DNA of 64,000 nt from Planctomycetota bacterium (lineage in GTDB: Bacteria; Planctomycetota; UBA1135; GCA-002686595), in the NCBI GenBank assembly GCA_028823345.1, contig JAPKBR010000010.1, forward strand, positions 1 through 64,000, written 5' to 3'. The notes beneath the pieces were generated by a model. The model searched no databases, was not told the DNA's origin, and was given only the letters and a program-made list of their open reading frames with translations. Made by a program: the position numbers and the translations under genes. Shown here piece after piece: positions 61,989 to 62,443 of the stretch. Positions within the stretch are counted from its first letter, which is position 1. Every line of letters begins with the position of its first letter.

Positions 61989-62339
61989 CTAGAACAAGCG
62001 CAAGCCGCATCCGGGGCAGCGTCCGTTTCCTTTTTCGAGTTCGGTCATGCAAGCGGGGCAGGTGGCCTGGTCCGCGTCGAGGTCCACCACCGCATCCGCC
62101 GCGGCCAGTTGGTCCTGGTCCATGCTCTCGCGCTCAGCTTCATCCAGCAGAGCTCGGGCATTTTTGGCGTCAGGGCCCGCGACCGCGAGCCAGAATTTGG
62201 GGCTTCAGCTCCCCGCATCGGAGCCTGGAGGGCGTACGAGGGCAGCTTCAAAGCCGCCTCGCTCCAGGAGGGTGCGGGATTGCTTGAGTTGGGGTAGGAG
62301 GCCCTCGGCGATGACGACTTGTTGCTCCATGGGGTCCAA
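61989..62339 (-). CDS. Candidate selenoprotein, or TGA-interrupted small DUF2007-like protein with C-terminal zinc ribbon
   Basis: SD AAGGAGGT at 62351-62344; TTG start 62339 (or ATG 62330); reads MEQQVVIAEGLLPQLKQSRTLLERGGFEAALVRPPGSDAGS[TGA]SPKFWLAVAGPDAKNARALLDEAERESMDQDQLAAADAVVDLDADQATCPACMTELEKGNGRCPGCGLRLF*; not in the supplied ORF track. Confidence 0.55.
62174..62191 (-). promoter_or_regulatory. SECIS-like hairpin 13 nt downstream of the in-frame TGA
   Basis: Minus-strand RNA GGCUCGC-GGUC-GCGGGCC; loop GGU lies 21-23 nt after the UGA. Confidence 0.4.
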
Positions 62340-62443
62340 GCTTACCTCCTTAGGGCTGGGAGGGGGACGCTTCGGTTGTAGAACCCACTCTGGTTTCAGC
62401 TAGGTACAGTATGCACTCCATTCGGTCGAGATCTTACACACCC

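Follow-up and report, generated by a model that had tools for sequence, protein, structure and literature searches.

A predicted selenoprotein with a covarying SECIS hairpin in Planctomycetota, and relatives that carry TGG at the selenocysteine site

A SMALL GENE WITH ONE IN-FRAME TGA

Near the end of the window (the whole stretch of planctomycete DNA that we analyzed, 64,000 nucleotides), a small gene on the minus strand runs through a single in-frame TGA before it reaches its stop codon. Is this gene broken, or is the TGA read as selenocysteine (Sec)? A preliminary description, made from the DNA of the window, had favored Sec insertion into a small protein and named a nonsense pseudogene or a sequencing error as the alternative. 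The features on which the question turns are these.

61989..62339, minus strand: predicted selenoprotein gene, 116 residues from TTG or 113 from ATG; the predicted Sec is residue 45 (42 from ATG)
62344..62351, minus strand: Shine-Dalgarno sequence AAGGAGGT, recognized from the sequence
62205..62207, minus strand: TGA codon for the putative Sec, codon 45 from TTG and 42 from ATG
62174..62191, minus strand: predicted SECIS hairpin GGCUCGC-GGUC-GCGGGCC, judged by covariation, synonymous constraint and energy
62127..62321, minus strand: N-terminal alpha/beta domain, residues 7-71, a putative distant relative of DUF3343/PF11823
62007..62060, minus strand: zinc ribbon past the TGA, C94-P-A-C97 ... 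C108-P-G-C111
61064..61969, minus strand: gene for a rhomboid-family protein (PF01694, E 2.1e-20), 19 nt past the TAG

Translation can start at TTG (62339-62337) or ATG (62330-62328) and ends at TAG (61991-61989), and the TGA at 62207-62205 is the only one in frame. The joined product is LDPMEQQVVIAEGLLPQLKQSRTLLERGGFEAALVRPPGSDAGS-U-SPKFWLAVAGPDAKNARALLDEAERESMDQDQLAAADAVVDLDADQATCPACMTELEKGNGRCPGCGLRLF. The preliminary description had this arrangement and its coordinates right, from the Shine-Dalgarno sequence and the TTG/ATG start through the single TGA to the CxxC...CPGCG zinc ribbon and the TAG.

One TGA that breaks an otherwise normal frame, in a window taken from a draft assembly of 102 contigs, could be a disabling mutation or a miscall. 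Comparison with related genomes argues against this. Homologs of the protein are present in 106 of 151 related genomes, and exactly one in-frame TGA, aligned at the TGA column of the window gene, was kept in 97 of the 107 matched stretches, which come from 106 separate genomes. Altogether, 106 family genes have TGA in this column, as do two short paralogs. The frame is conserved on both sides of the codon: protein conservation continues past the TGA, where zinc-ribbon cysteines 94, 97, 108, and 111 are invariant in 54 aligned relatives, and the hairpin that follows the TGA covaries. These comparative data refute the pseudogene or sequencing error, which we regard as vanishingly unlikely. Selenoprotein genes of this type are easily annotated as broken or as split in two.

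A HAIRPIN DOWNSTREAM OF THE TGA

The RNA past the UGA can fold as GGCUCGC-GGUC-GCGGGCC, with a 7-bp stem that begins 14 nt past the UGA. Its GGUC loop lies at 62184-62181, which is +21 to +24 from the UGA and puts GGU at +21 to +23, as had been stated earlier. The E. coli fdhF SECIS, which is of the SelB type, carries GGU at its apex some 20 nt past the UGA, and the window hairpin resembles it in this respect. It differs from fdhF in its combination of a GGUC tetraloop with a 7-bp stem and in a sequence that is nearly invariant across families, because the stem also encodes a conserved L-A-V-A.

Folded as a single sequence, the hairpin is unremarkable for G+C-rich DNA: it has an energy of -13.1 kcal/mol (z = -0.18), and 78 of 200 shuffles fold equally well. 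The case for a SECIS therefore rests on comparison across species. The hairpin does satisfy the published bacterial SECIS model, which specifies a loop of 3-9 nt, a stem of 4-16 bp, G in the first two loop positions, a spacing of 16-37 nt, and an energy of at most -7.5 kcal/mol (PMC13188914).

For the covariation test, we used 56 distinct hairpin segments, with slid positions and 500 shuffles as controls. Pairing holds in 93.9% of cells, compared to 28-48% for the slid controls, and five of the seven pairs show compensatory two-sided changes. The covariation score is 0.316 versus 0.155 after shuffling, and none of the 500 shuffles scored as high. Compensated stems include CTTGC/GCAAG (L039, L072), CTGGC/GCCAG (L108), CTCGT/ACGAG (L126, L127), and ATCGC/GCGAT (L164), and the family thus supplies a SECIS with clear covariation. 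The GGUC loop is invariant in the TGA genes. It is found at +21 from the TGA in 103 of 108 of them and at +24 in 4; in the fifth exception, L158, a chance GGTC lies further upstream, and the hairpin is also present at +21.

The codons that encode L-A-V-A are constrained as well. Among the TGA genes, these residues are written CTC (100/105), GCG (104/104), GTC (106/106), and GCG (100/105), while the background shares of the same codons are 0.38-0.47. By a binomial test that ignores relatedness, this gives P values of about 1e-34 to 1e-45. The hairpin that the preliminary description had proposed past the TGA is thus present, covaries and fits the published model.

CYSTEINE AT THE SELENOCYSTEINE COLUMN AND THE SELENOCYSTEINE MACHINERY

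We extended the homolog search to 399 genomes of the phylum. This added families f23, f72, and f96 on the TGA side and families f15, f33, f99, and f103 on the Cys side, the latter with motifs of the type APGCSAGTCGCRF. In these distant families, Cys occupies the Sec column within a C-x(2-4)-C-G-like motif; of the 14 distant homologs without TGA, most have Cys there. TGA and Cys, either of which was expected of homologs if the codon is read as Sec, thus both occur at the same column. The switch can be seen within one genus, where G102 has TGA (L208) and G510 has TGC (L207), apparently a recent Sec/Cys difference; in the TGC gene, the hairpin is already broken. A separate single-protein search for related loci returned two loci from metagenome-assembled genomes (MAGs), one of them from Planctomycetota.

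The GGTC hairpin is absent from all 13 Cys genes scanned. In a lenient scan, four Cys genes of f33 and f99 (L167, L170, L171, and L176) showed hairpins of 5-8 bp with GG/GT loops near +20. None of these four has the GGTC core, and they are possibly SECIS remnants or chance folds.

Two features, the nearly perfect palindrome of the stem and its persistence in genes with TGG at the site (see below), could also mark a DNA-level site for protein binding or recombination that overlaps the gene by coincidence. Such a site would not readily account for the fixed distance from the TGA (+21, or +24 in four genes), the asymmetric and invariant GGTC loop, or the absence of the GGTC hairpin from the 13 Cys genes scanned. 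Moreover, TCGCGGTCGCGRG has one copy in the whole genome, at the hairpin of the window gene. We consider a DNA-level site extremely unlikely.

If the TGA is read as Sec, the genome should encode the machinery. The search for it, proposed in the preliminary description, found all four components above their cut-offs.

SelB: 342 bits (cut-off, 242)
SelA: 453 bits (cut-off, 268)
SelD: 330 bits (cut-off, 125), with one in-frame TGA
tRNA-Sec: 73.7 bits (cut-off, 47), anticodon TCA (UCA in RNA)

The SelD gene (L018 1501-2448, contig C59) has its TGA within CAGUAAK, a UxxK motif, and the TGA is followed by a hairpin with a GGUC motif in the loop. Therefore, this genome probably uses Sec in further genes besides the one in the window. 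The GGU of the SelD hairpin lies at +33 to +35, a spacing unlike that of the window gene. SelA is present in 146 of the 151 related genomes; since nearly all relatives have it, its presence does not discriminate among them.

From the conserved frame, the covarying hairpin, the machinery, and the Cys homologs, we infer that the TGA of the window gene is very probably read as selenocysteine, as the preliminary description had proposed. When the ribosome arrives at the UGA (62207-62205), SelB with Sec-tRNA(UCA) would bind the hairpin, whose stem begins 14 nt further on. This binding would lead to insertion of selenocysteine at the UGA, after which translation would go on into the zinc ribbon.

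RELATIVES WITH TGG IN PLACE OF TGA

The sister family f6 includes eight species in which the codon at the Sec position is TGG, for Trp.

TGG genes L051-L058: genomes G137, G127, G145, G089, G135, G117, G125, and G133

The preliminary description had taken an unrelated residue at this position as evidence against Sec. This holds in part, since eight relatives have Trp, but those genes keep the hairpin, which is intact at +21 in all eight. The tree suggests that TGG arose about three times, with well-supported branches forcing only one change. The four hairpin codons for L-A-V-A are identical across all eight TGG species (4/4); among other conserved columns whose synonymous codons vary freely, 3 of 21 are identical and 18 of 21 have changed. 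The hypergeometric P value for this conservation is 0.0028, or 0.010 for the six-species clade.

Eight relatives with TGG and an intact hairpin could mean that the UGA, too, is read as Trp: the hairpin would aid a near-cognate Trp-tRNA, and UGA and UGG genes would make the same Trp protein. Several observations speak against such programmed readthrough. Distant homologs have Cys at the site, in the C-x(2-4)-C-G-like motif; within one genus, one species uses TGC and another TGA; and the conserved Cys of DUF3343 aligns with the Sec column. The genome encodes SelA and tRNA-Sec, the loop (GGUC) and its spacing match the SelB type, and TGA is the ordinary terminator of many of the same genes. We judge Trp readthrough very unlikely and retain Sec insertion at the UGA.

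Why, then, is the hairpin kept next to a Trp codon? Eight relatives with Trp and a retained hairpin leave room for a different function of the hairpin, or for Sec being dispensable. In the TGG genes themselves, a hairpin that is no longer needed may be decaying slowly, or it may serve a second purpose. There is also a precedent for a third reading. In E. coli, a UGG followed by a SECIS is decoded by native tRNA-Sec(UCA), through wobble, as a mixture of Trp and Sec (Xu et al. 2013, PMC3834832). That system was an engineered thioredoxin reductase and gave good yields only with selA, selB, and selC overexpressed (PMC3834832). The TGG genes share the layout of UGG and then a SECIS; unlike the engineered construct, theirs is natural. 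On the precedent of E. coli, we regard these genes as candidates for dual decoding, in which Sec-tRNA(UCA) would wobble at UGG under SECIS control to give a natural Sec/Trp mixture. No truncated product would be made. We searched the TGG genomes and found SelA in 8/8 and tRNA-Sec with anticodon TCA in 7/8, with no tRNA-Sec found in G135, which is 72% complete. A tRNA-Sec with anticodon CCA was sought in the TGG genomes and was not found. Dual decoding is in our estimate a rather unlikely account of the TGG genes; if true, it would show that a SECIS can recode the sense codon UGG in nature, and these genes allow Sec insertion at a natural UGG to be tested directly. Taken together, the 106 TGA genes, 14 distant non-TGA genes, one TGC congener, and 8 TGG genes are a natural experiment on Sec codon loss.

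IDENTITY OF THE PROTEIN

The window protein matches NCBIfam model NF049953 with an E value of 6.2e-20 and 71.8 bits, over positions 54-171 of the 172 in the model; the score does not reach the curated cut-off of 130 bits. NF049953 matches all 54 aligned members of the family. This model bears the name "zinc ribbon-containing (seleno)protein DG" and represents the "hypothetical protein DG" that was predicted in Desulfosediminicola in 2025 (PMC12013277, deep-Sep) and is listed under NF049953 in a 2026 review (PMC13188914). The window protein appears to be a distant relative of DG, homologous over its own whole length, and the zinc ribbon and the Sec and Cys forms of NF049953 are all present in the planctomycete branch. 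It differs from DG in leaving the first 53 model positions unmatched. The Sec motif, published for DG as GUxG, is SUSP in the window protein and mostly GUG in the planctomycete branch. Since DG was predicted in 2025 and reviewed in 2026, the kind of selenoprotein is already known. In the papers searched, we did not find the branch described here, a predicted selenoprotein in about 100 planctomycete species; the string "Planctomyc" is absent from the main text of PMC12013277 and PMC13188914.

The N-terminal domain appears to be distantly related to DUF3343 (PF11823), a putative Se/S carrier with a proposed role in Se trafficking (PMC5322559). An hhalign comparison of the family with DUF3343 gave an E value of 1.7e-5 and a probability of 79%, and it placed the conserved Cys-Gly of DUF3343 on the Sec/Cys-Gly column. 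Direct matches to PF11823 are weak: with an E threshold of 0.1, it matches 16 of 54 members, the best of them at 2.5e-5, the window protein does not match at E up to 10, and member L065, at 19.9 bits, stays below the gathering score of 25 bits. What sets the window protein apart from DUF3343 is the added C-terminal zinc ribbon and Sec in place of Cys. DUF2007 (PF09413), the family to which the preliminary description had likened the protein, is not supported: it is absent from the Pfam matches of the window protein at E up to 10, and the alignments are instead with DUF3343/PF11823 for the N-terminal domain and with NF049953 for the whole protein.

In an AlphaFold2 model of the protein (pLDDT, 84.6), Sec lies in the loop that precedes the strand at residues 49-54. 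Foldseek comparison with solved structures gave weak matches only, of the ferredoxin-like/PII-like and zinc-ribbon kinds, with a best E value of 0.03. The window protein is most likely a small cytosolic thiol/selenol protein whose ribbon would bind zinc. In the DUF3343-like domain, Sec would replace the conserved Cys of the Cys-Gly motif, and the protein might carry Se/S or perform redox chemistry, a role that we propose tentatively and with somewhat less than even confidence.

NEIGHBORING GENES AND A SHORT PARALOG

In the clade of the window, a rhomboid-family membrane protein is encoded beside the selenoprotein gene. At 23 family loci, a rhomboid relative lies 3' on the same strand, and this gene is probably the operon partner of the selenoprotein gene. 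Outside the rhomboid clade, the gene neighborhood gave no clue. The N terminus of the rhomboid protein shows only weak similarity to the domain of the selenoprotein family (hhalign, 21%). An Rfam search of the window returned one tRNA and nothing else.

A short paralog that lacks the zinc ribbon occurs in G066 (L126) and G071 (L127) and also at G038:C19:27404-27610. It reads CNTST-U-RRSWWLVVTS and has its own compensated hairpin, CTCGTGGTCACGAG, which makes it a candidate for a further selenoprotein.
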